Source of the DNA: a virus
DNA: 22,114 nucleotides
Strand: one strand, 5' to 3'
IMG/VR virus record: IMGVR_UViG_3300009187_000083
Location: 1-22,114 of that record
This document shows positions 4,684 through 22,114 of this stretch, in pieces. Under the pieces are notes generated by a model. The model did not search any database. It was not told where the DNA came from and saw only the letters and a list, made by a program, of their open reading frames with translations. Each line of letters opens with the position of its first letter. Position 1 is the stretch's first letter. Made by a program: the position numbers and the translations under genes.

Positions 4684-4720
4684 GTGTGCTCCTGTATGTG
4701 ATTGCTTACCCAACATCATC

Positions 4721-4763: not shown

Positions 4764-4785
4764 ATTGATTCTCAAAGGAGAAACC

Positions 4786-5064
4786 ATGGACTTCTATAAG
4801 CTTCTAGCAGAGCTTGGGTTTCCAATGGCAGCAGCACTTTGCGCAGGGTATTTTGTGTACTTGACACTGAAATTTATTTTAGCTGGTGTCATTAGTAACA
4901 TCAAGAGTATTCAAAGTATAATTCTATCATTAGATAAAAGAATTAAGACAATGGATAACGATTTACTTAAAATTGATATCCTAATTTCAACTGCTTTAGA
5001 TCTTCCTCCTGATGTAGAGAGAATTTCTAGACTTAATAACACTGATGAATTAAGAAAAGACTAA
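4786..5064 (+). CDS. Single-pass membrane protein, tandem paralogue 1 (92 aa)
   Basis: Begins MDFYKLLAELGFPMAAALCA after an AAGGAG site. One membrane helix occupies about residues 11-36 (AAALCAGYFVYLTLKF). A long cytoplasmic helix follows with heptad-like spacing (NIKSIQSIILSLDKRIKTMDNDLLKI). The layout L.E.(L/F)GFP..(A/T)...GY is shared with the next gene, so the two arose by duplication. Similar short membrane coiled-coil proteins occur in T4-like phages. Stop and next ATG overlap by one base (TAATG). Confidence 0.75.
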   Translation: MDFYKLLAELGFPMAAALCAGYFVYLTLKFILAGVISNIKSIQSIILSLDKRIKTMDNDLLKIDILISTALDLPPDVERISRLNNTDELRKD

Positions 5065-5330
5065 TGGAAATAGTACATTTAATAGAAAAATTTGGCTTTC
5101 CTGTTGTAACAGCAGGCTGTATGGGCTACTTGATATTCTATCTCTATAGATGGACTACTACAGAAGTTAAACCTATTATTAGCGAGACTAATAATATTCT
5201 TATAGCACTTATTGATAGAATCAGAACTCTAGATAACGATCTTATTAGATTAAATACTAAAGTCAATACCGTTATTATAATGGTAGATAAGTGTGAGAAG
5301 GAAAAGAAAGAGGCATGCGATAAGAAATGA
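5064..5330 (+). CDS. Single-pass membrane protein, tandem paralogue 2 (88 aa)
   Basis: Begins MEIVHLIEKFGFPVVTAGCM. The membrane helix lies at about residues 13-31 (VVTAGCMGYLIFYLYRW). A predicted coiled-coil segment (NILIALIDRIRTLDNDLIRL) matches the region of the upstream protein containing KRIKTMDNDLLKI. It ends in a Lys/Glu-rich tail. ATGA overlap with the metallophosphoesterase gene. The two proteins may form a hetero-oligomer in the inner membrane; function unknown. Confidence 0.75.
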   Translation: MEIVHLIEKFGFPVVTAGCMGYLIFYLYRWTTTEVKPIISETNNILIALIDRIRTLDNDLIRLNTKVNTVIIMVDKCEKEKKEACDKK

Positions 5331-6097
5331 AGTACAAGACTATATTCGTATCAGATATACATCTGGGAACTAAAGAAAGCAAAGCTGAATTGCTTACAGA
5401 TTTTCTTAAGCATAATGAGTGTGAAGAGCTATTTCTAGTTGGAGATATTATAGATGGATGGCGAGTTAAGCAAAAGAAATGGCACTGGAAGAAGTCTCAT
5501 TCCCATCTAGTAAGCAAGATATTCAAACTTAGCCGGAAGGGCGTAAAGATTACCTATGTGACGGGTAATCATGATGAGTTTCTTAGACCCTATGTTGGTC
5601 TATTTACTTTAGGTAACATTAGCGTTGTTAATCACGCTGAGTATAGAGGTATTCTAGGCGAGAAGTATCTCGTTGTACATGGAGATATGTTCGATGGAAT
5701 TACTCGACTAGCTCCATGGCTTAGCTTCTTAGGCGATAAAGCATACGATTCTTTACTATGGGTTAACTCAGTATATAACTGGGTTAGATATAAGTTTGGT
5801 TTTGATTATTGGAGCCTATCAAAGTTCCTTAAGCATAAAGTAAAAAAGGCCGTCGACTTTATATTTAAGTTTGAAGGCAATATCACTCATTATGCTAAGA
5901 AGAGAGAGTTCCAGGGCGTTATATGTGGACATATTCACACCCCGGAGATCAAAGAGATAAGCGGTCTATACTATATGAACTGCGGTGATTGGGTTGAAAG
6001 CTGTTCTGCTCTCGTTGAGAAAATGGACGGTACCTGGGATATAGTTTACTGGACTAAGAAGCTAGAAACTACTGATACTTCTCCATCGCATACGTAA
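5327..6097 (+). CDS. LpxH-like calcineurin-type metallophosphoesterase (256 aa)
   Basis: All metal-binding motifs of the family are present in order: SDIHLG (9-14), GDIID (39-43), GNHDE (79-83), VVHGD (115-119), CGHIHTPE (~199-206), and NCGDWVESCSALVE near the C-terminus. The GDIIDGWR and NCGDWVESC blocks are characteristic of UDP-2,3-diacylglucosamine diphosphatase (LpxH, COG2908), a lipid A enzyme, and length is close to LpxH (~240 aa). The start overlaps the membrane-protein gene by ATGA. Placement with two membrane proteins fits an envelope role, but another phosphoester substrate cannot be excluded. Its 3' end overlaps the convergent gene by 29 nt. Confidence 0.85.
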   Translation: MKYKTIFVSDIHLGTKESKAELLTDFLKHNECEELFLVGDIIDGWRVKQKKWHWKKSHSHLVSKIFKLSRKGVKITYVTGNHDEFLRPYVGLFTLGNISVVNHAEYRGILGEKYLVVHGDMFDGITRLAPWLSFLGDKAYDSLLWVNSVYNWVRYKFGFDYWSLSKFLKHKVKKAVDFIFKFEGNITHYAKKREFQGVICGHIHTPEIKEISGLYYMNCGDWVESCSALVEKMDGTWDIVYWTKKLETTDTSPSHT

Positions 6098-6305
6098 TAA
6101 AGATATTAGCCTGATATTCATCACTAAAATACTTAGTACAGGCTTGATATGTTTTGGTATTGTACATAATAACTAAAATACCTCCAGCGTCAGCACTGCT
6201 AGCCTTTATTAGCCAATTACCAAATTCAACAGCTTCTAAAGATGCATAGCGAGTATACTTCTTTCTCTTACTAGAACTTGTGCCAATGTTTGTATTTGCA
6301 CTCAT
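6069..6305 (-). CDS. Hypothetical protein (78 aa)
   Basis: Begins MSANTNIGTSSSKRKKYTRY. ATG 6305 has AAAGG seven bases upstream; two further in-frame ATGs (6311, 6320) are possible. A basic Ser/Lys-rich N-terminus is followed by a small alpha/beta segment (GGILVIMYNTKTYQACTKYF). It overlaps the upstream peptidase gene by 35 nt and the convergent phosphoesterase gene at its 3' end. Unknown. Confidence 0.55.
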   Translation of the reverse strand: MSANTNIGTSSSKRKKYTRYASLEAVEFGNWLIKASSADAGGILVIMYNTKTYQACTKYFSDEYQANIFITYAMEKYQ

Positions 6306-6696
6306 TTTCATACCTTTCATAGAGCTGACTTTCTAAATCGTATGCTTCATCTTCCCACTCATAACTCTTAGAAGTTTTTCCTTTCCATAGAAAAACTCTA
6401 TCCTTACTAATTAGTTCTTTTCTCAGATATTGCCTAGAATGAACTAATTCATGAGCAAGAGCAACAAGCATATCCTTTTCAGATAATCGCTTGTTTAAAT
6501 GTATAGCTATCTCTGGATATTTATGATCATAGTTAAAATCGCAATATCCATCAGCATCCAATTTACATAGAGTTATTTCTATGTCTAGAGGTATGGTTCT
6601 CTTTCTTACGTTAAGTTTATCAAGATAAAAGGTGGCAGCATTTATTAGAACCTCTTCTTGTTCTTTAGAAGTCTTTCTAACACTAATATTAATCAT
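6271..6696 (-). CDS. HExxH zinc metallopeptidase-like protein, paralogue (141 aa)
   Basis: Begins MINISVRKTSKEQEEV; ATG overlaps the helicase stop (ATGA). Zinc motif HELVH at residues 82-86 followed by SRQY, then LWKG (103-106) and SYEWEDEAY (111-119), which holds the likely third ligand Glu117. The same sequence of blocks is found in the 4177-4683 protein. No signal peptide. Cytoplasmic gluzincin-type peptidase by motif; the partner or substrate is unknown. Coupling to gp41 suggests early or middle expression with replication genes. Confidence 0.75.
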   Translation of the reverse strand: MINISVRKTSKEQEEVLINAATFYLDKLNVRKRTIPLDIEITLCKLDADGYCDFNYDHKYPEIAIHLNKRLSEKDMLVALAHELVHSRQYLRKELISKDRVFLWKGKTSKSYEWEDEAYDLESQLYERYENECKYKHWHKF

Positions 6697-8078: not shown

Positions 8079-9108
8079 CAGTTTCTGTTATTGTGTTTGA
8101 TCCATAACTAAACTCTTTCTTAGCTACTTCTTCAAGCTGTTCCATAATCTCAGCAGTAAAATACTCAGCAGGATTACGATTAATCTCTTTGCCAAATACT
8201 TTACGACCGTCTGGTAATTCATAGCGGGTAGATGACTTTTTAATGATTTCATACTTCTCAGCCAAGTCTAGGAGACCGTAGTAGCGGTCAAGGCCCTTGT
8301 CGTAAGTAAGTAACACTTCTGCGATTCCGTGTTCTTTTGATAGACGGGACTTATACATCTTGACTTTAATGATGTTTCCAATAATTGCGTCTCCGTCTTT
8401 TTCTTTCTTTTTGCTGAGCATTGCAATAGTGCTGGCAGCATATTTGAGCCCTGAACCACCTGATACCTCCTTTGTAGGAACATAAGAGCCAACCATTTCA
8501 TAGACGTGGTTGGTGACTAGCATTGGGATACGAACTTTAGCAAGCTTCAATGTAAGAACGCGGAAGGCTGCTTTAATAACCTGCGACTTAGTCATATCGC
8601 GAGTATCTTTACCTTCCAGACTATCTTCCATTTCCTTAGAGGTAGATAGCAGACCTAATGAATCAAGCACAAACATCATAGGAGGACGCTTGTCTTCTGG
8701 CTGCTTATCGTATGCATCAATCATCTTAAGTGCATGAGTCTTAAACTTCTGAATAGTGTCTGGCTCAGCAATAATAACGCGGTTAGTATCAATACCGCGA
8801 TCTTCCATCATCTGTTTCGTTACGGCTGCTTCGGTGTCGTAGTAGACGACTCCTCCGGCTGGGTTCTTGTCAAGGAAGGCTCTAACGACACCAAGTACGA
8901 AGAAAGTTTTACCAGTAGCGGACTCTCCTGCAAAAGCAGTAACTTTGTTATCAGGTACGCCACCATAGAGGCTACCAGAGAGAACAGCGTTGAGAATATA
9001 GCTGCCAGTATCAATAAAACCACCAAACTCAGCACTACCGTTGCCGTCAGCGGCAATACAAGTATCCTCATCTTTAATAGTCTCCACTAAGTCTCTAAAA
9101 AAGCTCAT
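8071..9108 (-). CDS. uvsX: UvsX RecA-like recombinase (345 aa)
   Basis: Strand-exchange protein for recombination-dependent replication and repair. Walker A GESATGKT at 61-68; catalytic-type VVYYDTEAAV at 87-96; Walker B MMFVLDS at 144-150; L2-like region VTNHVYEMVGSY...SGGSGLKYAAS around 208-236. The acidic C-terminal tail (NTITETDD) is typical of RecA-type regulators. AAGG precedes ATG 9108. It forms an operon with gp41 downstream, as in several T4 relatives. Confidence 0.94.
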   Translation of the reverse strand: MSFFRDLVETIKDEDTCIAADGNGSAEFGGFIDTGSYILNAVLSGSLYGGVPDNKVTAFAGESATGKTFFVLGVVRAFLDKNPAGGVVYYDTEAAVTKQMMEDRGIDTNRVIIAEPDTIQKFKTHALKMIDAYDKQPEDKRPPMMFVLDSLGLLSTSKEMEDSLEGKDTRDMTKSQVIKAAFRVLTLKLAKVRIPMLVTNHVYEMVGSYVPTKEVSGGSGLKYAASTIAMLSKKKEKDGDAIIGNIIKVKMYKSRLSKEHGIAEVLLTYDKGLDRYYGLLDLAEKYEIIKKSSTRYELPDGRKVFGKEINRNPAEYFTAEIMEQLEEVAKKEFSYGSNTITETDD

Positions 9109-9121
9109 CGTCTATCCTTTA

Positions 9122-10239: not shown

Positions 10240-12168
10240 TTATAGAAGATTAATAATAAAGTTACGGAACGATTGCAAGCTTTCTTTTAGTTTCTTAGCT
10301 TTTGGCTTAACAGCTTCTACATCGCTTAGAGTCTTTTTAACCAAATTATGAGGAATGTCTGGATGCATTCTATCCTTAAAGTACTTAAGCTTCTCTTCGT
10401 GAGAGGCATCGCTATGAGCCATATTTCTAAGCTCAGTAGCTCTTACAGTGTCATGCTCACCACCGGCTTCAGATCTAATACTGGTAGATAGGTGATTAAA
10501 GTGATATGGAACATGTCCTGCCTTATCTGCCTTGCCGTTATAAGCAGCAACTTGCTTAGCCGATTCTTCACGGCCCTTGCCTAATACAACATGCGCATTA
10601 GTGACATGAGGGTTGTTTTTATGGAAGTGTGTCATGTTCTGGAACATGCTTCCGCCTTCATGAACATGAAGTTTACCTGCTTCAATATCTTTATGAAATG
10701 CATGCTTAATTAGATTAGAACGATGCTCAGATGAAAGAGGATTATCAGCATCATTAGGCTTGTTCTTCGTAATGTACAGATGAACTGGACCGTGATTTTT
10801 CTTTAAGGCATCATTAATAAGCGCTTCATGGCCACGATGGAAAGGTTGCATACGTGCGGCAGGAATAACTACTGCTTTATGTTCTGTATCTTCTGTAACG
10901 CTTGGCTTCTTCTTGCTTAGCTCTGCGTTCTTAGCAAAGTTAGCTCTATTAAACTCTGAACGAGGATTAAGCTTGGTTGTAGAAGTAGCAGGATGCTTAC
11001 CGCGAGGAACATAGCCTTCTGGAGGAGCAGGCTTAAACTTACCATGCTCATCAGGAATCTCATGCTTGATAGGAGAGCTTTCATCAGCCTTATGCGTCTC
11101 GTGGACATAATCTCTGACCGCATTAGTCATAGCATGATGAACTTCAAATGTCTTATTAATAGCGCTCTTATGAGCATCTATTTCTTTTAAAGCAGCATGC
11201 TTTGCTTCAGTCTTAGCCTGCTTTGCTTTATCAGTCTTAACCTTAGCAATTTCTTTATCGTGAGCATCAGATACAAACTTCTTTAAGTCACCATGCATTA
11301 ATTGTTTCTGACCTTCGCCGCCGTACTCGCCTGTACGAATCTTGCTATTAACAAACGGCTCTAGATGATGTTTGTATGATGCATTAGCAACAGTATCTAA
11401 ATGTGAACGTGTTTCTTTATCTTTTAAATGCGCACCAATAGCCTTATTGTGTGTATCAAGTTTCTTGCTACTAACCTTAGGAGCATTTAGTTCTACATTA
11501 TAAACATCTGGATGATGTTTAATATCCTTACCAGGCTTTAGTCCATGAGGGTTATTAAAATTCTTATCCATAGCGGTGTGCGATGCGATAACAATTTTAG
11601 CTCTATGAAGCTTCTTTACTTCTTCTGGATTCGATGTAGAGTTACGAACTACATTAGTTTGCCAGGTAGCTTTACCATTAGCTAAATGAATGTCTTTCTT
11701 AGGCTCTGTTGTATGAATATCATGCTGAATAATAGGAGCCGCACCATGAATCTTGTGAGCATGGTCAAGAAGCGATGAAAGCATAGGAGTCAAATGATGC
11801 TCTGCACCATAATGCTTCTTTATATCTTCGTGCGAATAGGATACCTTTTCTTCAGGTTTTACGGTCTTAGCATCCATTCTACCCTTGTATGCAACACCCA
11901 CAGCATTTTCTGGATGATGAGGATTATGGAATGGAGAATCCTTAGAGTTTCTTGCGGTAACTACTGATACCTTACCGTCTGTTTTCTTTTGTGGTTCCAT
12001 AGAGGATTTGCTATCTTCACGGTGCTGCATGTGCTTGTAGATATTAGCAGCAGCGCCGGTAGCAGATGATCCTCTAAATGCATAGTCAGCCAGGTGAGTG
12101 TAATGCTTAGGATCTGGAGTTCCTAATGCCTGATATTTTTCATTTAAGTAGAAAGAAAAGGAAAACAT
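10240..12168 (-). CDS. Two-domain KxDG ligase-like / HxGH nucleotidyltransferase fusion protein (642 aa)
   Basis: The N-terminal ~230 residues resemble the phage DUF6267-type domain. It has a KxDG motif (K62-T-D-G65) like the AMP-accepting lysine motif of covalent nucleotidyltransferases, then VGVAYKGR, a SYSHEDIKKHYG block, and KIVIASHTAMD. The middle (~270-420) is Lys/His/Ala-rich and probably extended. The C-terminal domain carries PAARMQPFHRGH (HRGH at 444-447) and STSIRS...VRATELRNMA, the two signatures of HxGH-type cytidylyl/adenylyltransferases. Histidine is strikingly abundant throughout. The pair of domains suggests nucleotide or RNA end chemistry, perhaps NAD-related; substrate unknown. 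A TATAAATA element precedes it. Confidence 0.7.
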   Translation of the reverse strand: MFSFSFYLNEKYQALGTPDPKHYTHLADYAFRGSSATGAAANIYKHMQHREDSKSSMEPQKKTDGKVSVVTARNSKDSPFHNPHHPENAVGVAYKGRMDAKTVKPEEKVSYSHEDIKKHYGAEHHLTPMLSSLLDHAHKIHGAAPIIQHDIHTTEPKKDIHLANGKATWQTNVVRNSTSNPEEVKKLHRAKIVIASHTAMDKNFNNPHGLKPGKDIKHHPDVYNVELNAPKVSSKKLDTHNKAIGAHLKDKETRSHLDTVANASYKHHLEPFVNSKIRTGEYGGEGQKQLMHGDLKKFVSDAHDKEIAKVKTDKAKQAKTEAKHAALKEIDAHKSAINKTFEVHHAMTNAVRDYVHETHKADESSPIKHEIPDEHGKFKPAPPEGYVPRGKHPATSTTKLNPRSEFNRANFAKNAELSKKKPSVTEDTEHKAVVIPAARMQPFHRGHEALINDALKKNHGPVHLYITKNKPNDADNPLSSEHRSNLIKHAFHKDIEAGKLHVHEGGSMFQNMTHFHKNNPHVTNAHVVLGKGREESAKQVAAYNGKADKAGHVPYHFNHLSTSIRSEAGGEHDTVRATELRNMAHSDASHEEKLKYFKDRMHPDIPHNLVKKTLSDVEAVKPKAKKLKESLQSFRNFIINLL

Positions 12169-12198: not shown

Positions 12199-12206
12199 TA
12201 TTTATA
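12199..12206 (-). promoter_or_regulatory. Possible T4-type late promoter TATAAATA
   Basis: Exact TATAAATA on the minus strand, 31 nt before ATG 12168. The TAA within it (12204-12202) is also the stop codon of the polymerase gene. A few chance matches are expected in 22 kb of AT-rich DNA, so support is position only. Confidence 0.45.
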
Positions 12207-13170
12207 TAAAGAACTCTTCCAAAGTATTTCTCTTCTCAGTTTCCCATCCTATAGTATCCAGAATACCTTTGATAGGCTCAATAAACGCCTTCTGAAACTG
12301 CACATCATAGTCGATCATATGTTCTAGATCTAGCTCTTTAGGAAGTTTTCCGGGCGTCGATATAACATGCTCGCCAAGGTAGTTAGGAGTCTTAAGATAG
12401 CAGAACTTAATCTTCTCTCCCTTCTTTACAGTATCATATTTCTTATCGAGCTTACGCTGCTTGATTGCGTGATTGTATAGCAGAGCACCTTTAACGTGAA
12501 TAGGTGTACCTAACTTGAACACCTTACCGCCACTACTATCAGACCACTTATCGAGTTCAGTAACACCACGCGGGAATGCAATTTGTTCGAACGGTAGACT
12601 CTTAAACTCATCTCTACTCTTCTCAATGTATGAAATCATATCATCTTCAGTCTTGGTCATGATAATAGTCATACTCTCTTTAATCATCTTACGAACCGGT
12701 GCAGGAGTAGATGAACGAACAGCCTCGATGCCCATCATCTTAAGCTTGGGCTCGGCATACTGAACGCCTTCAGAGTTATGCACGTTAAGAATATATCGCT
12801 TCTTAGCAGTAAAGATGCCTTTATCAGCAATAACTTCTCGCTTCATCTTCATCTTCTGCTCATAAGCATTCACATAGATTGACAGCTCTTCATAGCACTT
12901 ATCAATATACGGCTCAAGTACTTTATCACAGAACTTATCTAAGTACTTAACTACCTTCTCGGTCGGAAGTTCTGCTGCTGTCTGCTTGACTAACTCATCC
13001 AGTGTAATATACATTGAATCGGTATCAACGGCAAGCACATAATCGACATTGTCAGTCTTAAGAGTCTTGTTAAGATACTCGTTCATCTTCTTTTCCATCC
13101 AGCGGATAGAAAGCTGACCCGACTTAGTAATTGATTCGGCATACTTAGGGTCAAACCAGCGGAAGAACAT
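12202..13170 (-). CDS. 43: DNA polymerase gp43, C-terminal part (after in-frame stop)
   Basis: Family B polymerase palm and thumb. The conserved motif C YVLAVDTDSMYI sits near the start, and the region GQLSIRWMEKKMNEYLNK matches T4 gp43 just after motif B. The frame is the same as that of 13192-14739 and is open up to the TAA at 13194-13192. The first ATG is 13170 (MFFRWFDPKYAES), but it has no ribosome binding site, and starting there would lose the AYGALAN residues of motif B. So this part is either made by readthrough of the TAA, re-initiated inefficiently, or artificially separated by a sequence error. C-terminal end NTLEEFFI is near the expected length. Confidence 0.8.
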   Translation of the reverse strand: MFFRWFDPKYAESITKSGQLSIRWMEKKMNEYLNKTLKTDNVDYVLAVDTDSMYITLDELVKQTAAELPTEKVVKYLDKFCDKVLEPYIDKCYEELSIYVNAYEQKMKMKREVIADKGIFTAKKRYILNVHNSEGVQYAEPKLKMMGIEAVRSSTPAPVRKMIKESMTIIMTKTEDDMISYIEKSRDEFKSLPFEQIAFPRGVTELDKWSDSSGGKVFKLGTPIHVKGALLYNHAIKQRKLDKKYDTVKKGEKIKFCYLKTPNYLGEHVISTPGKLPKELDLEHMIDYDVQFQKAFIEPIKGILDTIGWETEKRNTLEEFFI

Positions 13171-13191
13171 ATTCGCAAGAGCGCCATAAGC

Positions 13192-13194
13192 TTA
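13192..13194 (-). other. In-frame TAA at the Ser of polymerase motif B
   Basis: Codons read ...AAA-AAG-ATT-CAG-CTA-AAC-TAA-GCT-TAT-GGC (KKIQLN-stop-AYG). In other family B polymerases this is KxxxNSxYG, so TAA replaces the Ser codon (TCA differs by one base). No frame change and no inserted sequence. See the findings. Confidence 0.9.
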
Positions 13195-14739
13195 GTTTAG
13201 CTGAATCTTCTTAGCAAGCTGCATGTTATGACAGCGTGCAATTTCCTTCTCATACTCGTAAGTCTTTTCCTTTTCGTACTGCTTCTTAGCAGCAATCATC
13301 TGGTTCTTATACTTAACCCGATCGTTATACATCTGCTCCATCAGCTTAGGCAGGAACCCTTGACGATCTCGATCAAAGTAACAACCAGACGCAGCTACAG
13401 TATAGTTCTGAGAGGTAATCTCATTCCTTATGCTTAGGTCGTTTAACGCACCATTAAGGATTCTATCTACTCCGCTATCGTCCGAAAGACCTCCAAACGT
13501 TCCTTTGTAAGTCTCAGGACTAATATTGTATTGCATGATAAGGTGCGGGTACAGACTATTCAAGTCGAACGACACAACCCAGTTATGCATACCTAGCTGA
13601 GGATCTTTTACATAAGCACCTACGATCTGTCGATCTTTTTCTTTGCGTTGCGCAACATCAAACATCGGAACAACTATATTCTGTTCCATTAGGTAATTAT
13701 GGATAATAATATCCCACATGCGCACAGACGTAAACGTATCTAGATAGTTGACCTTGGCGTCATAGGCAATTGCCAGTACCTGCTCAATAAACTTAAGCTT
13801 ATCTTCTAGTCGATCGACCAGCGCAACATCTCGAATGTTATACTCGATATAGTTCTGAAAGTCTTTTTCATAGAACTCATCGAGGGTTTCAAAGCCAAGC
13901 GCGTTATAATCTAACTTACGTTCGCCTAGTTCAGTAAACGCAATATGATCTAGTTTATAGCTTTCTTGCTGTGAGAATGAAAACTTCTTATACAGCTGCA
14001 TGTAATCTAGAATACTAATACCTACGATGATAGGAATAGTATATTCACGACCAGCGATTTCAATCTGCCGTTCGGAGAGAATTCCCCACGGTGATAGACG
14101 CTTAGCAGACTCAGGGCCAAGGATACGCGTAATACGATTAATCATATAGGGCATATCGAAGAACTCAACGTTCCAGCCGGTGATAATGTCAGGCAAGAAC
14201 TGCTTCGAGCGCCATGCTAGGATAAACTTATTAAGCAGATCATTCTCATCTCTACACTTGACGTAGGTTATGTTTTCTGATGAGGGCTTATAATCGTAGT
14301 ATCCGAAGACGATTGATTTGCCGTTTTTTGTGAGGGTGATAGCGGTGACTTGTCTATCTGCAACTGAGATGTCTGGAAAGCCGCCCTCCGCCTTGATTTC
14401 GATATCGATTGTGACAACTGAGACTTTCTTCGGGTCATATTTAACTTCCCCTTGATAGTGATCGTTGATAAACGGATACACCCAGTTAGTCATTCCGTAA
14501 GTTTCTTTACCGGAAATGTCACTCATGCCGCTGATATAGGCACGTGCATCGTAAGTACTATCAAACTCTTTACGGTAAACAGTCTTACCATAGAGAGTTT
14601 TATACTCTTCAAGACTAACGCGATCAGTTACAAATAGGTAAGGGCGACAAGGTACGGTATATTGTACTTTCTCGTCGCCCTCGTAGCCTCGGATTAGAAA
14701 TTCATTCTTATAGAGATGGACATTCGTATAAAATCTCAT
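13192..14739 (-). CDS. 43: DNA polymerase gp43, N-terminal part with exonuclease and motif A (515 aa)
   Basis: Carries the N-terminal domain and 3'-5' exonuclease: Exo I VVTIDIEIK (109-117), Exo II IITGWNVEFFD, Exo III YNIRDVALVDRLED. It also has polymerase motif A VVSFDLNSLYPHLI, ending in the first half of motif B (CHNMQLAKKIQLN). T4 gp43 is ~900 aa in one chain; here 515 + 1 + ~329 residues would give a complete enzyme. ATG 14739 follows the promoter at 14768-14796; its ribosome binding site is weak. Located after regA and accessory genes, as in T4 (44-62-regA-43). Confidence 0.9.
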   Translation of the reverse strand: MRFYTNVHLYKNEFLIRGYEGDEKVQYTVPCRPYLFVTDRVSLEEYKTLYGKTVYRKEFDSTYDARAYISGMSDISGKETYGMTNWVYPFINDHYQGEVKYDPKKVSVVTIDIEIKAEGGFPDISVADRQVTAITLTKNGKSIVFGYYDYKPSSENITYVKCRDENDLLNKFILAWRSKQFLPDIITGWNVEFFDMPYMINRITRILGPESAKRLSPWGILSERQIEIAGREYTIPIIVGISILDYMQLYKKFSFSQQESYKLDHIAFTELGERKLDYNALGFETLDEFYEKDFQNYIEYNIRDVALVDRLEDKLKFIEQVLAIAYDAKVNYLDTFTSVRMWDIIIHNYLMEQNIVVPMFDVAQRKEKDRQIVGAYVKDPQLGMHNWVVSFDLNSLYPHLIMQYNISPETYKGTFGGLSDDSGVDRILNGALNDLSIRNEITSQNYTVAASGCYFDRDRQGFLPKLMEQMYNDRVKYKNQMIAAKKQYEKEKTYEYEKEIARCHNMQLAKKIQLN

Positions 14740-15698: not shown

Positions 15699-16193
15699 TT
15701 AGTCTTCAACTAGAAGTTGCTTATCTGATGAGGAATCAGAGATTTCAATCTTCTTTGGCTTCTTGTGCTCTGGAATGATACGCTCTAGGAAAACCTTTAG
15801 AAGGCCGTTAATGTATTCGGCGTTCTTGATTTCTACTGTATCGGCAAGAGTAAACTTGCGTGCGAAAGCGCGGTCAGAGATACCCTTGTATAGGTATGTC
15901 TGGTCTACTCCATCATTAACAAGCGAGTCGATAGAAGTTGAACCCTTAACTGAAAGAACACCATCAGCAAGTTCTAGTTCTAGTTCGTTCTTTGAGAAAC
16001 CAGCAACGGCCAGCTCAATAACGTACTTGTTATCGTCTACCTTCTTGATATTGTATGGAGGATAGTTTGGAATGTTCTTAGCAACATCGTCATGGAACTT
16101 TGCCAGACGGTTGAACGTTTCGTCGAATCCAACAAAAAACTTGTCAAGATCCTTAAATTGGTTGCCCAGAACCATAGTTGGAAATGAAGTCAT
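15699..16193 (-). CDS. hsp20: Hsp20 small heat shock protein (IbpA-type, 164 aa)
   Basis: Alpha-crystallin domain chaperone that holds unfolding proteins. N-terminal arm ~1-45 (FPTMVLGNQFKDLDKFFVGF), then NYPPYNIKKVDDNKYVIELAVAGF as in IbpA. The fold ends with the NGLLKVFL signature (~130-137) and a basic tail with IEI, the I-x-I/V motif used for oligomer assembly. AAGGAG precedes ATG 16193. Phage Hsp20 genes are common in T4-like cyanophages and relatives, where they are thought to aid capsid folding. It has its own late-type promoter and a terminator. Confidence 0.92.
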   Translation of the reverse strand: MTSFPTMVLGNQFKDLDKFFVGFDETFNRLAKFHDDVAKNIPNYPPYNIKKVDDNKYVIELAVAGFSKNELELELADGVLSVKGSTSIDSLVNDGVDQTYLYKGISDRAFARKFTLADTVEIKNAEYINGLLKVFLERIIPEHKKPKKIEISDSSSDKQLLVED

Positions 16194-16224
16194 ATATTTC
16201 TCCTTAAATTAAGCAAGATTAAAT

Positions 16225-16245
16225 TACAGCCCCGAAGGCGCTGCA
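16225..16245 (-). terminator. UUCG hairpin, likely terminator of the deaminase transcript
   Basis: On the minus strand TGCAGC-G-CC-TTCG-GG-GCTGTA forms an 8-bp stem with one bulged G and a UUCG loop, followed by ATTTAATCTT. A transcript from the late promoter at 16250-16257 would begin within the stem, so the hairpin can act only on read-through RNA from upstream. Confidence 0.55.
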
Positions 16246-16249
16246 ATGT

Positions 16250-16257
16250 TATTTATA
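16250..16257 (-). promoter_or_regulatory. Possible T4-type late promoter TATAAATA for hsp20
   Basis: Exact TATAAATA on the minus strand, overlapping the deaminase stop codon (TAA, 16255-16253), followed by the hairpin and a ~50-nt leader to ATG 16193. Chance matches are possible. Confidence 0.5.
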
Positions 16258-16723
16258 CGGGGGTCAGTATATCTAGCTGAATTCCCGCTTCTTCAAACAT
16301 AGATGTAGTTACTTCCCAATTAAAACGAGTACCGTCAAATGATTCCGGTACATAACATACAACGCGTTTAATTCCGCGCTGTATAATAGATTTAGCACAT
16401 TCGTTGCATGGCATCAACGTTGCATAGAGAGTGCAGTCTGAAACATCGGAATGGGCATTGTCAAGGGCGTTTCTTTCAGCATGACACACGAATTTAAGTT
16501 TAGTATCTCTATCAAGGTAGCGGCTATCATTATCTTCAACACCACTAGGAAAACCGTTATACCCAACAGATAATATATGATTTTTTTCATTAACTATTAC
16601 TGAACCAACTTTCGTGCTAGGATCTTTTGACCATGTGCTGATATGAGAAGCTAAGTTTAAAAACCTTAGATCCCATTTAGACTCTTTCGAATTCGCCAAA
16701 CTTGTTAATTCTATATCGAACAT
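16253..16723 (-). CDS. dCMP deaminase-like zinc enzyme (156 aa)
   Basis: Converts dCMP to dUMP (precursor of dTMP) or a related deoxycytidylate. Zinc site CHAE (His81, Glu83) and PCNECAK (Cys106, Cys109) as in the cytidine/deoxycytidylate deaminase fold. STWSKDPSTKVGSVIV and SVGYNGFPSGVED are conserved in the dCMP deaminase/ComE group. No separate allosteric insertion as in T4 Cd (~190 aa), so it is shorter than T4's enzyme. The 5' end overlaps the 56-aa gene by 47 nt in another frame. Confidence 0.88.
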   Translation of the reverse strand: MFDIELTSLANSKESKWDLRFLNLASHISTWSKDPSTKVGSVIVNEKNHILSVGYNGFPSGVEDNDSRYLDRDTKLKFVCHAERNALDNAHSDVSDCTLYATLMPCNECAKSIIQRGIKRVVCYVPESFDGTRFNWEVTTSMFEEAGIQLDILTPV

Positions 16724-16847
16724 CTTTCTTATTCTCTTTGCCCTGGTCTAGTCCATATTTTTTACAATGTTCGGCCCAGGCTGCCTTCTGCTTTTCTTTC
16801 TGCTTCTTACTAGGCTTACGCCCTGAATTGCTTACCTTAATAATCAA
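16677..16847 (-). CDS. Small lysine-rich protein with TTG start (56 aa)
   Basis: Reads MIIKVSNSGRKPSKKQKEKQ at the start and ends INKFGEFERV. GGAG lies eight bases before the TTG (16847-16845), which overlaps the upstream TGA stop (TTGA). The 47-nt overlap with the deaminase gene is long, but the frame is open and highly basic (SGRKPSKKQKEKQKAAWAEH), as expected for a nucleic-acid-binding peptide; similar GRKPSKKQ starts occur in T4-like phages. Moderate confidence. Confidence 0.55.
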   Translation of the reverse strand: MIIKVSNSGRKPSKKQKEKQKAAWAEHCKKYGLDQGKENKKDVRYRINKFGEFERV

Positions 16848-17029
16848 TTGTCAAGCTCCGATACTAGCTCATTAAGAAAATACTGCTCATCTGGATACTC
16901 TTCAAGAAACATATCTTTGATATCTTCAAGAGCAAATTGCGTGTTTTCTACAAGATTATAAAAGAATCCGCTCATGATACTTTCTTTTTGCTCACGCATT
17001 AGTTTAAGCTGAGCCTGGCTACGAAACAT
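16844..17029 (-). CDS. Small hypothetical protein (61 aa)
   Basis: Begins MFRSQAQLKLMREQKESIMS. ATG 17029 has AAGG six bases upstream, overlapping the stop of the AbrB-like gene (TAAGG). An upstream in-frame ATG (17047) has no site. Basic N-terminal helix, acidic C-terminal helix (EDIKDMFLEEYPDEQYFLNE). Unknown function. Confidence 0.65.
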   Translation of the reverse strand: MFRSQAQLKLMREQKESIMSGFFYNLVENTQFALEDIKDMFLEEYPDEQYFLNELVSELDN

Positions 17030-17030
17030 A

Positions 17031-17474
17031 TCAATCCTTATAGTCAATAGTATTAGTAAGACGTTCGATTACTTCTGATTCCGTCCACGAGCTTAGATAA
17101 TCATTATCTGAATATTGAAGTTGTATAATATCGGAATATGAAATCTCCCGGCCGTCAAAAATCTGAGTTCCTAGATGCTTTTGAGAGAACTCTTTAAAGC
17201 CCGGGTCGTGCTCATTAAACACAACTTCATCCATTGCATCTACAAGAGACTTAGCTTTGATGACATATCGATTACGGAATGTGCTAAGAATATCTACAAC
17301 ATAGTACTTAAGGCTATCATCCATTTTCTTCATACTCCATGAACCGTCGCTATTGTCTACCCATTTTATAGAGTCACCAATTTTAAGGCCAGTAGCTTCT
17401 AGTATTTCATCGTTAAGATGAATGTAATGCTCACCATCAACACCCAATTTAACATCTAATGTCCAAGTTTTCAT
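17031..17474 (-). CDS. AbrB/SpoVT-like N-terminal domain protein (147 aa)
   Basis: Begins MKTWTLDVKLGVDGEHYIHL. Residues ~1-50 (HYIHLNDEILEATGLKIGDSIKWVD..GSWSMKK) match the swapped-hairpin AbrB-type DNA-binding pattern (I.LP.E.L...G...GD.L.......) seen in many short phage proteins. Residues 55-147 form a second alpha/beta domain (KYYVVDILSTFRNRYVIKAK) with an acidic helical tail. May be a phage transcription regulator; lacking a partner antitoxin pair, other roles are possible. A TATAAT box lies 31 nt upstream without a clear -35. Confidence 0.6.
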   Translation of the reverse strand: MKTWTLDVKLGVDGEHYIHLNDEILEATGLKIGDSIKWVDNSDGSWSMKKMDDSLKYYVVDILSTFRNRYVIKAKSLVDAMDEVVFNEHDPGFKEFSQKHLGTQIFDGREISYSDIIQLQYSDNDYLSSWTESEVIERLTNTIDYKD

Positions 17475-17504
17475 AGTTGACTTTAAAATTTAAATTACCT
17501 AAGT

Positions 17505-17510
17505 ATTATA
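17505..17510 (-). promoter_or_regulatory. Isolated -10 box (TATAAT) upstream of the AbrB-like gene
   Basis: Minus strand GGGTATAATACT with no recognisable -35 at 16-18 bp. It could be activator-dependent (T4 middle-type), but a MotA box is not clear. The 58-bp divergent region 17475-17532 also holds a plus-strand TTGACT without a well-spaced -10. Confidence 0.35.
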
Positions 17511-17532
17511 CCCATTAACTAAATTAAATGCC

Positions 17533-18012
17533 ATGAAAAAAGCAATTTTATTGCTGGCTCTCTTCTGCTCTTCAGCTTTTGCTGATAAGATGGATGATAT
17601 TAAAATCCTATCGCAAGAAGCAGCTAGCATCTACGCGCCAGACTTGCATTATACCATACCACCAATAGTATATCTCTCACCTAAGGAACTTACTATAAAG
17701 GTTTGCGGTAAGCAATGCCCTAACGATTCTTTTGTAGTAGGGCTATACGATGGAGGAACCATCTACCTAAGAAGTACCTGGGATCCTCAGAACGATACAG
17801 ATGCAAGTTACTACGTGCATGAGTTTGTTCACCATTTACAATACCTTAGCAAGGTAATTGACCCTACAGCTAAGGGAACCTGCGAGGAGAACGCCAGGAT
17901 TGAGTTTGTTGCTTACAGTGTTCAGAATCAATGGTTGATGAGAAGAGGGAAAGGTTTCCCCTATCGCATGATGCAACAACTAAGTTACATATCTGCAGGA
18001 TGTAATCCTTAA
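17533..18012 (+). CDS. Exported HExxH metallopeptidase-like protein (159 aa)
   Basis: Signal peptide MKKAILLLALFCSSAFA, with likely cleavage after residue 17, so it acts in the periplasm or outside. Zinc motif HEFVHHLQY at 96-104. Candidate third ligands lie in CEENARIEFVAYSVQNQWL (117-135), where the ARIEFVAY/Q..WL block resembles DUF6647-type proteins. Four Cys in the mature part (58, 62, 117, near C-terminus) could form two disulfides. There is no strong ribosome binding site. The 3' end overlaps the convergent 52-aa gene by 4 nt. Possible role in cell-wall or envelope processing; substrate unknown. Confidence 0.75.
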   Translation: MKKAILLLALFCSSAFADKMDDIKILSQEAASIYAPDLHYTIPPIVYLSPKELTIKVCGKQCPNDSFVVGLYDGGTIYLRSTWDPQNDTDASYYVHEFVHHLQYLSKVIDPTAKGTCEENARIEFVAYSVQNQWLMRRGKGFPYRMMQQLSYISAGCNP

Positions 18013-18167
18013 TCCTTCTCTACTATTTCTAGATTTCCATCAAAAACAAATCCACATCCGCGAAGAAAAGATTCAAAATTTTCTATAACATTATTAAGTT
18101 GAATCTCTTCAAACTCATGAGTGATCTTGAGATCGTCAAGAGTATGAGCAAAAGTAAATTTAGACAT
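18009..18167 (-). CDS. Conserved-type small phage protein (52 aa)
   Basis: Begins MSKFTFAHTLDDLKITHEFE; AAGG precedes ATG 18167. The ending NFESFLRGCGFVFDGNLEIV is typical of a widespread short protein in T4-like phages (FLRG.GF.FDG.L), unknown function. Beta-helix-beta layout likely. Lies between the tRNA-Gly gene and the secreted peptidase. Confidence 0.7.
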   Translation of the reverse strand: MSKFTFAHTLDDLKITHEFEEIQLNNVIENFESFLRGCGFVFDGNLEIVEKD

Positions 18168-18183
18168 AATATATCCTTAAGAT

Positions 18184-18258
18184 TGGAGCGGGATGCGGGA
18201 ATCGAACCCGCGACTCTAGCTTGGAAGGCTAGGGTAATACCATTTTACGAATCCCGCT
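18184..18258 (-). tRNA. tRNA-Gly(TCC)
   Basis: Acceptor AGCGGGA/TCCCGCT, encoded CCA, anticodon loop CTTCCAA, T-arm GGTTCGATTCC. Reads GGA. The 5' end overlaps the stop codon of the RNase H-like gene by 2 nt. Confidence 0.92.
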
Positions 18259-18727
18259 ATGCAGCTAACACTTCTTTAATTCTATCTGCAGCATAGCTCG
18301 CTGCAAACGCTTGAGGCTTAATAAGGGGTGTAACGTTACACATACCCTTAATATAGCCTACTGCTTCATTAATAATACAACTCGAACCGTGAAGATCGCT
18401 TGGATTAATATCAAGATGAACTTCAACATCTCTGTCTTCTAGAACTTCTTGTAGTTTCAAATACAGCTCTGCAACTTTATATACTTCATTCATTAGCCGC
18501 ATTCTTGGGCGGTTCTTGCTTTGATCATAATCGCGTTCTCTTTGAACCTCGCCAAAGAGCTTGCAACCATGTCTTCCGTCGATGTGTACTACAATTGCGA
18601 GTGTGTAATCAGCATACCAAATATTGTTATTAATGAATCTTTCAGAGTCGCCACCAATATAAATTTTTGTGCTAGGGCCTTGTGCTTCGATAAACTCTTT
18701 TACTTCATTAATATCTATTTTTAGCAT
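18257..18727 (-). CDS. RNase H-like protein (DUF458/YkuK-type, 156 aa)
   Basis: Begins MLKIDINEVKEFIEAQGPST; AAGGAG precedes ATG 18727 in the 13 nt between it and the tRNA-Leu gene. The layout IYIGGDSER (22-30), ADYTLAIVVHIDGRHGCKLF, LDINPSDLHGSSCIINEAVGYIKG and KPQAFAASYAADR matches the DUF458 RNase H-like family, with acidic residues at the expected metal-binding places (D27, D105, D151-type). Possibly an RNA/DNA hybrid or RNA nuclease; not experimentally fixed for the family. Confidence 0.7.
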   Translation of the reverse strand: MLKIDINEVKEFIEAQGPSTKIYIGGDSERFINNNIWYADYTLAIVVHIDGRHGCKLFGEVQRERDYDQSKNRPRMRLMNEVYKVAELYLKLQEVLEDRDVEVHLDINPSDLHGSSCIINEAVGYIKGMCNVTPLIKPQAFAASYAADRIKEVLAA

Positions 18728-18740
18728 GCTTGCTCCTTGT

Positions 18741-18828
18741 TGGTGCCCGGGACCGGAATCGAACCGGTACGCCGTTTTAAAGCGGCAGATTTTAAGTCTG
18801 CTGTGTCTACCTATTTCACCACCCGGGC
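18741..18828 (-). tRNA. tRNA-Leu(TAA)
   Basis: Acceptor GCCCGGG/CCCGGGC, A73, encoded CCA, anticodon loop CTTAAAA, long variable arm CGCTTTAAAACGGCG. Reads UUA. Not a stop suppressor: the anticodon, not the codon, is TAA. Confidence 0.92.
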
Positions 18829-18833
18829 GTTTT

Positions 18834-18910
<77 letters not shown>

Positions 18911-18917
18911 ATGATTC

Positions 18918-18946
18918 ATTATAGTCTACTTATGAATGAAGGGCAA
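18918..18946 (-). promoter_or_regulatory. Sigma70-type promoter for the last three tRNAs
   Basis: Minus strand TTGCCC (18946-18941), 17-bp spacer, TATAAT (18923-18918), 8 nt before the tRNA-Arg gene. Drives Arg, Leu(TAA), the RNase H-like gene and Gly. Confidence 0.8.
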
Positions 18947-18949
18947 CAA

Positions 18950-19108
18950 CTAATCGTCCTGCTTAAGCTTTTCTTCTTTGAGTTTTTCTTCTGGGGTAAG
19001 AACCTGTTCTGGTTCTTTATTACCAAAAATTTTATCCCAGTTGTTTTCGAATGTGATAAGATCAATACCTAATGGTCTTTGTTTTGATCCTTTTCCGCCA
19101 TCGCTCAT
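18950..19108 (-). CDS. Small conserved-type phage protein (52 aa, MSDGGKGS-type)
   Basis: Begins MSDGGKGSKQRPLGIDLITF, with AAGGAG before ATG 19108. The N-terminus MSDGGKGS..RP followed by F..NWD.IFG is a recurring short protein in many phages, function unknown. The C-terminal third is a Lys/Glu helix. It lies directly downstream of the candidate noncoding RNA region. Confidence 0.75.
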   Translation of the reverse strand: MSDGGKGSKQRPLGIDLITFENNWDKIFGNKEPEQVLTPEEKLKEEKLKQDD

Positions 19109-19124
19109 ATTGATCTCCTTATAG

Positions 19125-19562
19125 ATAGTTCGGTTGCGCTACTAAGGTTACAGGTTGCGTTCTAGACCGCTATTGTATACCGTTTCATCCCTAGCTTCCG
19201 CTTCGCACCCAATACACCGAAAGGTATGGGGCGGGTCCTTGACAGTAACGACTACTCTGGGTACGGCCTATAAGAAGGGCTCGCCATTTCGCTGTACGCA
19301 CTACTGTTATCGTCTCCTAAAGACTCATCAGAAGGACTGTTATAGGTGCCAAGCCATTCCTTACCAGGGAACCACTTGACCGGGAGGTTACTCCGACCAC
19401 GTCTAATAACGCTTCGACGAGAACGCTTAAAGTATTCGATCTTTAAGAATCGCTAGTCATATGGTGGAACTAGGCACCTGAGAGTTCTGGACACTATTTG
19501 GCCAATAGTGCTGTGGCATAACACAAACTCACACCTCTCCTAAACCCAAGGAGACACGGGGG
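19125..19562 (-). ncRNA. Candidate large structured noncoding RNA in the tRNA array
   Basis: About 440 nt with no credible gene on either strand and a GC content above that of most neighbouring genes. It is dense in stable pairings: perfect 7-bp hairpins at 19492-19510 and 19426-19447, a 7-bp long-range pairing of 19344-19350 with 19473-19479, and 5-bp hairpins at 19453-19473 and 19537-19553. A CCC/AUAC hairpin lies at 19208-19231. It lies between tRNA-Val and the small MSDGGKGS-type gene, co-directional with the tRNAs. Large phage RNAs such as GOLLD and ROOL are known near tRNA genes, but I see no diagnostic match. Boundaries and strand are inferred. Confidence 0.55.
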
Positions 19563-19564
19563 TT

Positions 19565-19640
19565 TGGTAGGAGGTACCGGGTTCGAACCGATCACATTCA
19601 CGGTGTAAGCGTGACGCTCTACCAACTGAGCTAACCTCCT
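19565..19640 (-). tRNA. tRNA-Val(TAC)
   Basis: Acceptor AGGAGGT/ACCTCCT, A73, encoded CCA, anticodon stem TCACG/CGTGA, loop CTTACAC. Reads GUA. Confidence 0.92.
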
Positions 19641-19644
19641 ATTT

Positions 19645-19720
19645 TGGTCTCTCTATTTGGATTTGAACCAAAACCACTGCGCCCCAAACGCAGTACGCTA
19701 CCTGATTACGCCATAGAGAG
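19645..19720 (-). tRNA. tRNA-Pro(TGG)
   Basis: Acceptor CTCTCTA/TAGAGAG, A73, encoded CCA, anticodon stem CTGCG/CGCAG, loop TTTGGGG. Reads CCA. Confidence 0.92.
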
Positions 19721-19724
19721 AAAC

Positions 19725-19798
19725 TGGTGCCCCCACCCGGAATCGAACCAAGAATCCATGATTACAAATCAAGTGTTATACCATTTAACTATGGAGGC
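19725..19798 (-). tRNA. tRNA-Thr(TGT)
   Basis: Acceptor GCCTCCA/TGGGGGC, A73, encoded CCA, loop TTTGTAA. Reads ACA. One mismatch in the anticodon stem (CTTGA/TCATG) and G-U pairs in the T stem, so slightly degenerate but complete. Confidence 0.85.
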
Positions 19799-19802
19799 TA
19801 TA

Positions 19803-20060
19803 TTAAACTTCTTTCTTCTTACGACCGCGACGAAGCTTTGGCTTTTCAACTACTACTTCTGCAACCTTATCGCTTCCTGGTTCTGATGCAACTTGCTCAG
19901 GCATGCTATCGTCAGGATTCAAAAATACAGGTGCTCCTAGCTCAGTAATTTCGTTAAGAAGCTTATCATAGTGTGTAATAAATTCAATAGTACCGTCTTC
20001 ATATACGGTACGAGTACTATGCGCGCCTTCGAATGTGCTTACAATTACCTTCTCCGACAT
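19803..20060 (-). CDS. Hypothetical protein inside the tRNA array (85 aa)
   Basis: Begins MSEKVIVSTFEGAHSTRTVY; AGGAG precedes ATG 20060, and the longer frame would run into tRNA-Asn. N-terminal strands (KVIVSTFEG, RTVYEDGTIEFITHY), an acidic middle, and a basic tail PKLRRGRKKKEV that could bind nucleic acid. No family recognised. Confidence 0.7.
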   Translation of the reverse strand: MSEKVIVSTFEGAHSTRTVYEDGTIEFITHYDKLLNEITELGAPVFLNPDDSMPEQVASEPGSDKVAEVVVEKPKLRRGRKKKEV

Positions 20061-20077
20061 AATGTCTCCTATTAACT

Positions 20078-20152
20078 TGGCTCCCCGGGCTGGGATTGAA
20101 CCAGCGACCAAATGATTAACAGTCATCTACTCTACCGCTGAGCTACCAGGGA
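20078..20152 (-). tRNA. tRNA-Asn(GTT)
   Basis: Acceptor TCCCTGG/CCGGGGA, G73, encoded CCA, loop CTGTTAA. Reads AAC/AAU. Confidence 0.92.
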
Positions 20153-20157
20153 ATAAT

Positions 20158-20231
20158 TGGTTGCGGGACCTAGATTCGAACTAAGAACTCAGGCTTATGA
20201 GACCTGTGTGATGCCATTTCACTATCCCGCT
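20158..20231 (-). tRNA. tRNA-Met(CAT), A1·A72 mismatch
   Basis: Loop CTCATAA, anticodon CAT, encoded CCA. With standard arm lengths, positions 2-7 (GCGGGA) pair with 66-71 (TCCCGC), leaving A1 opposite A72 unpaired, a feature of initiator tRNAs. But the anticodon stem (CAGGT/GCCTG) lacks the three G-C pairs of fMet, and position 11:24 is T:A as in elongators. Elongator Met, initiator-like, or lysidine-modified Ile are all possible. Confidence 0.8.
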
Positions 20232-20239
20232 ATACGTAC

Positions 20240-20267
20240 ATTATAATACTTATCGAATATAAGTCAA
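20240..20267 (-). promoter_or_regulatory. Sigma70-type promoter within the tRNA array
   Basis: Minus strand TTGACT (20267-20262), 16-bp spacer, TATAAT (20245-20240), between tRNA-Trp and tRNA-Met. Drives the Met to Val group and the downstream noncoding RNA region. Confidence 0.75.
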
Positions 20268-20269
20268 CT

Positions 20270-20343
20270 TGGACCCGGTGGAGAGAATCGAACTCCCACA
20301 TGCAGATTTGGAGGCTGCGGTTCTGCCATTAAACTACACCGGG
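20270..20343 (-). tRNA. tRNA-Trp(CCA) with U73
   Basis: Acceptor CCCGGTG/CACCGGG, encoded CCA, loop CTCCAAA. Reads UGG. Discriminator base is U where bacterial tRNA-Trp has G, and pair 31:39 is C·U. U73 and the C2:G71 pair are typical of tRNA-Gly, so this may derive from a tRNA-Gly body. Confidence 0.82.
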
Positions 20344-20346
20344 ATC

Positions 20347-20436
20347 TGGCGGAAGCGGTGAGATTCGAACTCACGGTGCCATTACTGACACGACAGTTTT
20401 CAAGACTGTTGATTTAAACCACTCATCCACACTTCC
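20347..20436 (-). tRNA. tRNA-Ser(TGA)
   Basis: Acceptor GGAAGTG/CGCTTCC, G73, encoded CCA, anticodon stem ACAGT/ACTGT, loop CTTGAAA, long variable arm. Reads UCA. Confidence 0.92.
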
Positions 20437-20440
20437 AAAC

Positions 20441-20632
20441 TTACTCGAACTCTTTCTGAATATAAAAATTAGCTACCTTTTCAGTCATCATACTAACAAT
20501 ATCGCCAAAACATCCTTCGAGTGTATATTTATTTTTAAGCTTACCGAGGCACTTAGTCCTAGTAAACGTATAAAAATCTTCGCGATGTTCTTTGTTGCTT
20601 ACGTCAAAGTTAATAACTGGATTAATTTTCAT
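20441..20632 (-). CDS. Small hypothetical protein inside the tRNA array (63 aa)
   Basis: Begins MKINPVINFDVSNKEHREDF. The longer frame would cover tRNA-Leu(TAG), so ATG 20632 is chosen; the site upstream is weak (GAGAAATAAT). FDVSNKEHREDFYTF.RT resembles a short protein family of T4-like phages (FD...KEHR..F..F). Unknown function. Confidence 0.6.
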   Translation of the reverse strand: MKINPVINFDVSNKEHREDFYTFTRTKCLGKLKNKYTLEGCFGDIVSMMTEKVANFYIQKEFE

Positions 20633-20646
20633 ATTATTTCTCAATT

Positions 20647-20729
20647 TGGTGCCCCAGGAGAGACTCGAACTCTCACGCTTTTGGCACTGGCTTCTAAGAC
20701 CAGCGTGTCTACCATTCCACCACCGGGGC
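20647..20729 (-). tRNA. tRNA-Leu(TAG)
   Basis: Acceptor GCCCCGG/CTGGGGC, A73, encoded CCA, anticodon stem CTGGT/GCCAG, loop CTTAGAA, long variable arm TGCCAAAAGCG. Reads CUA. The letters TAG are the anticodon, so this is not an amber suppressor. Confidence 0.92.
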
Positions 20730-20736
20730 GATAACA

Positions 20737-20830
20737 TGGTCCTCCCGACAGGACTCGAACCTGTAACGTGCCCCCATCTAGAGCCTATGCCGGGTATAAG
20801 CCGGGTGTTTTACCATTAAACTACAGGAGG
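20737..20830 (-). tRNA. Atypical tRNA, anticodon TAT (Ile AUA) with a long variable region
   Basis: Acceptor CCTCCTG/CGGGAGG, A73, encoded CCA, D stem GTTT/AAAC, T stem ACAGG/CCTGT all intact. The anticodon arm CCGG-CTTATAC-CCGG gives anticodon TAT. Between anticodon stem and T stem lie about 24 nt that can form GCTC/GGGC, like a class II tRNA (Leu, Ser, Tyr), which is not expected for tRNA-Ile. A near-direct repeat ACCCGGC occurs across the loop. First gene of the array after its promoter. Confidence 0.75.
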
Positions 20831-20850
20831 GATTTCCTAACAACAAATAC

Positions 20851-20879
20851 ATTATAGATGCATCAGAATTAAAAGTCAA
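20851..20879 (-). promoter_or_regulatory. Consensus sigma70 promoter at the head of the tRNA array
   Basis: Minus strand TTGACT (20879-20874), 17-bp spacer, TATAAT (20856-20851), 20 nt before the TAT-anticodon tRNA. It directly follows the regA stop codon. Confidence 0.85.
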
Positions 20880-21281
20880 CTACTTTGTTTTTCTGCCTAT
20901 ATTGTATTTTGCTACTAATTCCCACTCATGCTTTTCTTTATATGATAAAACTTTGATTTGAGATAGAGGTGCTGTTGGTTCTTGAGTTGCGCGGGGATCT
21001 ATAAGGTGTATGAGTTCCCATTCTGCAAGGAGATTGATAATAGCATTGCGACGTGCTATATCATCTTCGGAGAAATTAGAGGGCTTGCCGTCTAGAAGAA
21101 ATAGTTCTTTGAAATGAACTATGTAGTAGCGGCCTTGCTTATGAAGTATATGACAGGATTGATAGAGCTTTTTATCTTTTCTGGAGGCTACACCAATACG
21201 GGTTAGCGTTTCTCTTACTTTTAAAAAATCATCTTCTTCTACCAATCTTATTTCAATAAGATCGTCTATAGTGGTCATCAT
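20880..21281 (-). CDS. regA: RegA translational repressor of early genes (133 aa)
   Basis: Binds the start region of early mRNAs and blocks their translation. Strong match to T4 RegA: DFLKVRETLTRIGVASRKDK, YQSCHILHKQGRYYIVHFKE, EKHEWELVAKYNIG. T4 RegA has 122 residues; here ~9 more at the N-terminus if ATG 21281 is used (ATG 21278 is also possible). AAGGTG lies upstream. Overlaps gene 62 by 29 nt, so translation is coupled as in T4. Confidence 0.95.
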   Translation of the reverse strand: MMTTIDDLIEIRLVEEDDFLKVRETLTRIGVASRKDKKLYQSCHILHKQGRYYIVHFKELFLLDGKPSNFSEDDIARRNAIINLLAEWELIHLIDPRATQEPTAPLSQIKVLSYKEKHEWELVAKYNIGRKTK

Positions 21282-21660
21282 TCACCTTTTTTAGTTCTTG
21301 TTTTATAGTCTCTAACTGCTCAGCTGAAAGTATCGATAAGACTTGAGACGCCTTGTCAACATTATACTTATAATATTGACAAACAGCGGAAATATCTTCA
21401 CTTTCAACCTTCTTCACCCACTTTGCAAAACGCTTCTGAGGCCTGATACTATTTAGTAGATAATGAAACTGTAATTTCTTATCTACATTATTGTATCGGT
21501 TTATCTCATTCGCGTAGAGAATAGTATCGGGGAAATAAGATAGAGACTTATTAACTAAAAAAGGCACATACTCTTTTTCTACCAGCTCATCATTCTCTGA
21601 GCCAGTCATTAGATCTTTCTTGGTATAGTTTATTGCATTGACAAAATCAAACGGGTTCAT
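21253..21660 (-). CDS. 62: Sliding clamp loader small subunit, T4 gp62-type (135 aa)
   Basis: Partner of gp44 that loads the gp45 clamp on DNA. Begins MNPFDFVNAINYTKKDLMTG, with NKSLSYFPDTILYANEIN, LQFHYLLNSIRPQKRFAKW as in gp62 of distant T4 relatives. Shorter than T4 gp62 (187 aa), as in other exo-T-even phages. ATG overlaps the gp44 stop (ATGA). Confidence 0.92.
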   Translation of the reverse strand: MNPFDFVNAINYTKKDLMTGSENDELVEKEYVPFLVNKSLSYFPDTILYANEINRYNNVDKKLQFHYLLNSIRPQKRFAKWVKKVESEDISAVCQYYKYNVDKASQVLSILSAEQLETIKQELKKVNDDHYRRSY

Positions 21661-22114
21661 TTGAACTCTATTTCAACCATGACTTCGGTAAGGAATGCAA
21701 CCAGGTTAATTTCCTTATCAGCAACGAATGCTGAGTTGTACTGGTACTTTGCAATAAGAAGTACCAGTTGTGGGATAGAACTTGCTTTAACGTGTTCTGA
21801 TGCGGTATCATAAAAGGTCCTAAACAATACAGCATCTTCTACGTCTGAATGCTCTCCTACCCATTTTCTTACATTAGTAAAGCTTTTATCCTTAATAAAG
21901 GCTACTAAGTTTAAAAATTTAATCTCTTGAAAGTTAGATAGTATGCCAGAGTCAATACTACCCGTTGCACTATATCGCTGTAGCTCGTTAATAGTGCGGC
22001 GGAAGTCTGGAAAGTATCGTTCTACGAATGCAGCAAGAGTCTTACTATCGCTAGTAACGTTCTCGTCTTCTAGGATCTTTAGAAGTCTCTTGTAGAACTG
22101 CATAGCAAGCTTAG
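21657..22114 (-). CDS. 44: Sliding clamp loader large subunit gp44, C-terminal part (runs off window)
   Basis: Clamp-loader ATPase subunit; only the C-terminal ~150 residues are in the window. The first in-frame ATG is 22103, but the frame stays open to the window edge (KLAMQFYKR), so the gene continues beyond. AFVERYFPDFRRTINELQRYS matches the lid-domain region of T4 gp44, followed by the helical collar domain to VEIEFK. The Walker motifs lie outside the window. Coupled to gene 62 by ATGA. Confidence 0.92.
   Translation of the reverse strand, partial: KLAMQFYKRLLKILEDENVTSDSKTLAAFVERYFPDFRRTINELQRYSATGSIDSGILSNFQEIKFLNLVAFIKDKSFTNVRKWVGEHSDVEDAVLFRTFYDTASEHVKASSIPQLVLLIAKYQYNSAFVADKEINLVAFLTEVMVEIEFK

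Follow-up and report, generated by a model that had tools for sequence, protein, structure and literature searches.

An in-frame TAA at motif B of a gp43-type DNA polymerase gene is private to one metagenomic contig and is probably a single wrong base

Split gp43 polymerases occur in phages of Aeromonas and Acinetobacter and in some cyanophages. In Aeromonas phage 25 the two halves of gp43, made from two genes, co-purify with activity (PMC2988022). How does a polymerase frame that is cut by one stop codon compare with these? We examined such a frame in a stretch of viral DNA of 22,114 nucleotides (IMG/VR virus record IMGVR_UViG_3300009187_000083, positions 1 to 22,114), the whole of which is here called the window. 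The initial annotation of this DNA had offered three candidates for the stop: TAA readthrough that limits the polymerase, a two-subunit enzyme born from the loss of an inserted element, and a sequence error in one base. A stop of this kind, were it real and fixed, would make a replicative polymerase a striking instance of recoding. The last of the three candidates is the best supported, for the closest relative of the window and all other relatives that we fetched have the gene intact.

The polymerase frame extends on the minus strand from 14739 to 12202, a length of 845 codons, and the TAA at 13194–13192 is its sole stop. The description first given of it, a single in-frame TAA that splits the polymerase with no shift, thus holds. 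The frame is open everywhere else, and the two open reading frames on either side of the TAA (515 and 322 aa; table 1) are one shared frame. The local reading is ...CAG CTA AAC TAA GCT TAT GGC GCT..., which places the TAA at codon 516 in the motif context KKIQLN-[S]-AYG. When the TAA is read as S, phmmer pairs ‘kiqlnsaygal’ of the window with ‘kllinslygal’ of RB69-type gp43 chains. The TAA codon is therefore the Ser of motif B, as had been claimed. Both reading frames match a single full-length family, phrog_262 (family length 856): residues 1–515 of the N-terminal half correspond to 7–521, and residues 3–321 of the C-terminal half to 532–851. The gene is of the gp43 type of family B, with a collinear full-length match, exonuclease and polymerase domains, and a motif B that is seen in the relatives’ version, codon 516 of the window being TAA. 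There is no start codon between the TAA and the ATG at 13170. Nor do the 30 bases upstream of that ATG contain a Shine–Dalgarno-like stretch, in agreement with the earlier remark that it lacks a ribosome-binding site. This ATG is the native Met codon 524 of the full-length polymerase.

Table 1. Features of the polymerase locus and the bases private to the window (positions in the window).
Feature	Position	Strand	Evidence
gp43 DNA polymerase, 5' part, codons 1–515 (exonuclease domain and first part of polymerase domain)	13192..14739	-	Pfam DNA_pol_B_exo1 2.2e-23, DNA_pol_B 1.6e-15; phrog_262 1.4e-171
Private in-frame TAA, codon 516 (motif B Ser in all relatives)	13192..13194	-	Sequence and relatives
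gp43 DNA polymerase, 3' part; mechanical reading frame from native Met524, not a separate gene	12202..13170	-	phrog_262 2.2e-130; no Shine–Dalgarno-like stretch upstream
Second window-private base change (plus-strand G to T), which replaces Pro171 by Thr in the 642-aa reading frame	11658	+	9 other aligned loci have G

What stands at codon 516 in the relatives? The initial annotation had proposed this comparison, and we made it with 80 related polymerase loci fetched from IMG/VR viral contigs. All 80 encode Ser at this codon, by means of six different codons, and no stop occurs anywhere in the aligned polymerase of any of them. The closest relative is contig 3300027971_000937 (L002), from the same phage population as the window. 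Over 6,815 aligned bases the DNA of the two is 99.9% identical, with four substitutions and a single gap of 4 bases. One of the four substitutions is the second base of codon 516. The polymerase of L002 is open over 845 codons and has the same residue as the window at the other 844; around the TAA its DNA is that of the window except for the deviating base. L007, at 99% protein identity, likewise has an intact polymerase. At the 4-base gap, which lies near the contig end, L002 lacks the bases of window positions 9107–9110, and with them the greater part of the start codon in a UvsX-like gene. This loss is probably an assembly error at the contig end, and a reminder that such contigs carry errors.

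A scan with the dCMP deaminase gene found a further contig, L164, of 104,904 bases and from the metagenome of L002, which has one mismatch in 6,336 bases against window positions 15779–22114. A scan for near-identical contigs with the helicase gene returned, among the matches listed, more distant relatives only. L002 and L164 are nearly identical to the window, and all three are therefore essentially the same phage strain. No second polymerase of this population is present on L164, and the longer related records give one polymerase match each. We then turn to IMG/VR as a whole, a collection that may omit the window’s own and near-identical records. The local 32-base sequence, with the deviating base left free, matched only L002 and L007 there, both intact, and a degenerate pattern for motif B in which TAA, TAG or TGA replaced the Ser codon, and which also admitted TGG, matched nothing. 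Megablast found no close relatives in annotated phage records; by protein, the nearest named phages are cyanophages, at about 52% identity. We conclude that the stop is private to the window’s contig. It is real in the window’s sequence, yet it is no property of the lineage. Uninterrupted relatives were part of what had been named in advance as speaking against a real interruption, and in that part the outcome is clear, L002 and every other fetched relative being intact.

What kind of base change is involved? Two bases of the window differ from those of every aligned relative: 13193, within the stop, and 11658, for which some of the aligned loci in table 1 are overlapping records. Each is a nonsynonymous G-to-T change as read on the plus strand. 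Position 21922, at which the window has A and L164 has C (Ile versus Ser at codon 61 of the reading frame 22103–21657), is again nonsynonymous and of the G:C/T:A class; the relatives disagree there, so that the change may have gone in either direction. Between the window and L007, 66% of the differences are transitions and 14% (75/530) are G:C/T:A, and, with the per-gene counts summed, about 79% of codon changes are synonymous. The window-private changes seem not to have passed through selection, which would suit errors or mutations of very recent origin, though with two or three changes to go by this is suggestive only. Random G:C-to-T:A changes make a stop in these genes in about 10% of cases, which gives a 19–27% chance that two or three of them would include a stop. 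The presence of a stop among the private changes therefore needs no special cause. One report (PMC12390751) describes G-to-T changes as an artefact that oxidative damage to DNA is known to cause in sequencing. Both window-private changes are likewise G:C to T:A, and might be G-to-T/C-to-A library artefacts of this kind, a likeness of two polarised changes only.

The 642-aa reading frame that contains position 11658 (window 10240–12168, minus strand) lies between the polymerase and the UvsX-like gene. Its C-terminal part is cytidylyltransferase-like (phrog_395, 1.2e-8; Pfam CTP_transf_like, 0.0044, below the cut-off), while its N-terminal part, of about 430 aa, has no family match. Elsewhere in the window, two adjacent small reading frames of 99 and 88 aa (4765–5330, plus strand) resemble paralogues; both have a hydrophobic segment close to the N terminus, and neither has a Pfam match. 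They adjoin a calcineurin-like phosphoesterase gene (5327–6097) on the same strand, which is opposite to that of most genes. Two small genes on the minus strand (4177–4749 and 6271–6696) have HExxH-like motifs and weak SprT-like or metallopeptidase matches below the Pfam cut-offs.

Because only the window’s contig has the stop and a contig of almost the same sequence is intact, we prefer an error of consensus, sequencing or library to a split or readthrough enzyme, and put the probability of such an error at roughly 0.75. The phage, T4-like and related to cyanophages, would then have an ordinary, uninterrupted gp43-type polymerase gene, and one base of the contig would be wrong; that single-base difference would turn the invariant Ser codon of motif B into TAA. 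At most, the sampled DNA contained the stop as a singleton under no selection, and any functional role for it is very unlikely. The case is mainly a caution: an essential gene can seem split or recoded through one base of a lone metagenomic contig, and one near-identical public contig is enough to remove the claim.

Might the stop nonetheless have been present in a phage? A very recent, real nonsense mutation in part of the population is an unlikely origin, though the chief alternative to an error. The polymerase-defective genome might be complemented in co-infection, might come from a dead virion, or might be a minority variant picked by the assembler; jointly we allow these three a minor share of the probability. 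A defective variant fits all the sequence data. The stop is private, its flanks are unchanged with no adaptation around it, and the private changes of the window look unselected. However, to form the consensus such a variant would need local dominance, and a defect in the replicative polymerase is not likely to reach it; the window genes compared with L007 show no other stop. We infer that an error is likelier than a real dead variant.

Readthrough or suppression of the TAA, limiting the amount of full-length polymerase, is most improbable. The frame downstream of the stop is open and, in comparison with L007, constrained at the protein level, and the encoded protein is otherwise identical to that of the intact relative. 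But the constraint is older than the stop. The stop is absent from every relative, and nothing near the codon differs from the intact copy in L002, so that the readthrough candidate of the initial annotation is not supported. Neither a conserved in-frame stop with conserved context nor a phage-coded suppressor tRNA, the marks of programmed readthrough or recoding, was found, the tRNA being sought in both the window and the 105-kb contig L164. All 12 tRNAs of the window have sense anticodons and none decodes a stop; L164 has the same 12 and no others, a count of phage-coded tRNAs in a phage genome that may be incomplete. A global reassignment of TAA was rejected, since many other genes in the window terminate at TAA. 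That the ochre codon at the motif B Ser is suppressed by the host or read through, so as to give full-length polymerase in some hosts only, is scarcely credible.

We give next to no weight to a true two-subunit polymerase, possibly one that arose when an intein or another insert was lost from the N–S position of motif B, despite the precedents with which we began. Its C-terminal reading frame would begin at the native Met524 and would lack AYGALAN, a ribosome-binding site and a spacer. The closest relative, L002, is uninterrupted and identical in DNA around the site. Among the 80 aligned relatives none has an intein or other insert at codon 516, and neither an insert nor the remnant of one was found in this or the related genes. 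With no stop or insert in any relative, the origin from a lost insert that had been suggested is not supported. In a split of the gp43A/gp43B kind the second gene would be expected to have its own start region, and the break to lie outside the catalytic motifs and to be lineage-wide. Here the first ATG is native codon 524, the break would fall inside motif B, and the relatives are intact at the codon in 80 cases out of 80. One wrong base in the contig remains our reading.

How, then, does the window compare with known polymerases? That gene 43 is split in T4-like phages of Aeromonas, to which the initial annotation had pointed, is correct (PMC2988022), but there the gene is broken upstream of motif B, and the C-terminal subunit has the motif complete. 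Two frames, as in the window, are present in Aeromonas phages AP1 and 50AhydR13PP, Acinetobacter phage 133 and Synechococcus phage ACG-2014f. In these four the break is near window residue 487, roughly 25–30 residues upstream of the motif B Ser. Their two genes either share a short overlap or are separated by other genes, and the second subunit contains all of motif B. We read these break points from the alignment block, the computed end residues being unreliable where the chain ends align loosely. In ACG-2014f (L241, 492–3508), split upstream of motif B, two small hypothetical reading frames lie between the gp43 genes. In Slickus01 the break is downstream of motif B, which is again uncut; the mapped splits thus keep motif B in one chain. 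The uninterrupted gp43 polymerases of the T4-like cyanophages Sf-CH5 (Synechococcus phage) and S-SM2, on the other hand, are full-length collinear homologues of the window’s polymerase, at about 52% identity. Closer still are the IMG/VR loci L002–L007 (79–100% polymerase identity), which have a Ser codon at motif B where the window’s contig alone shows TAA.
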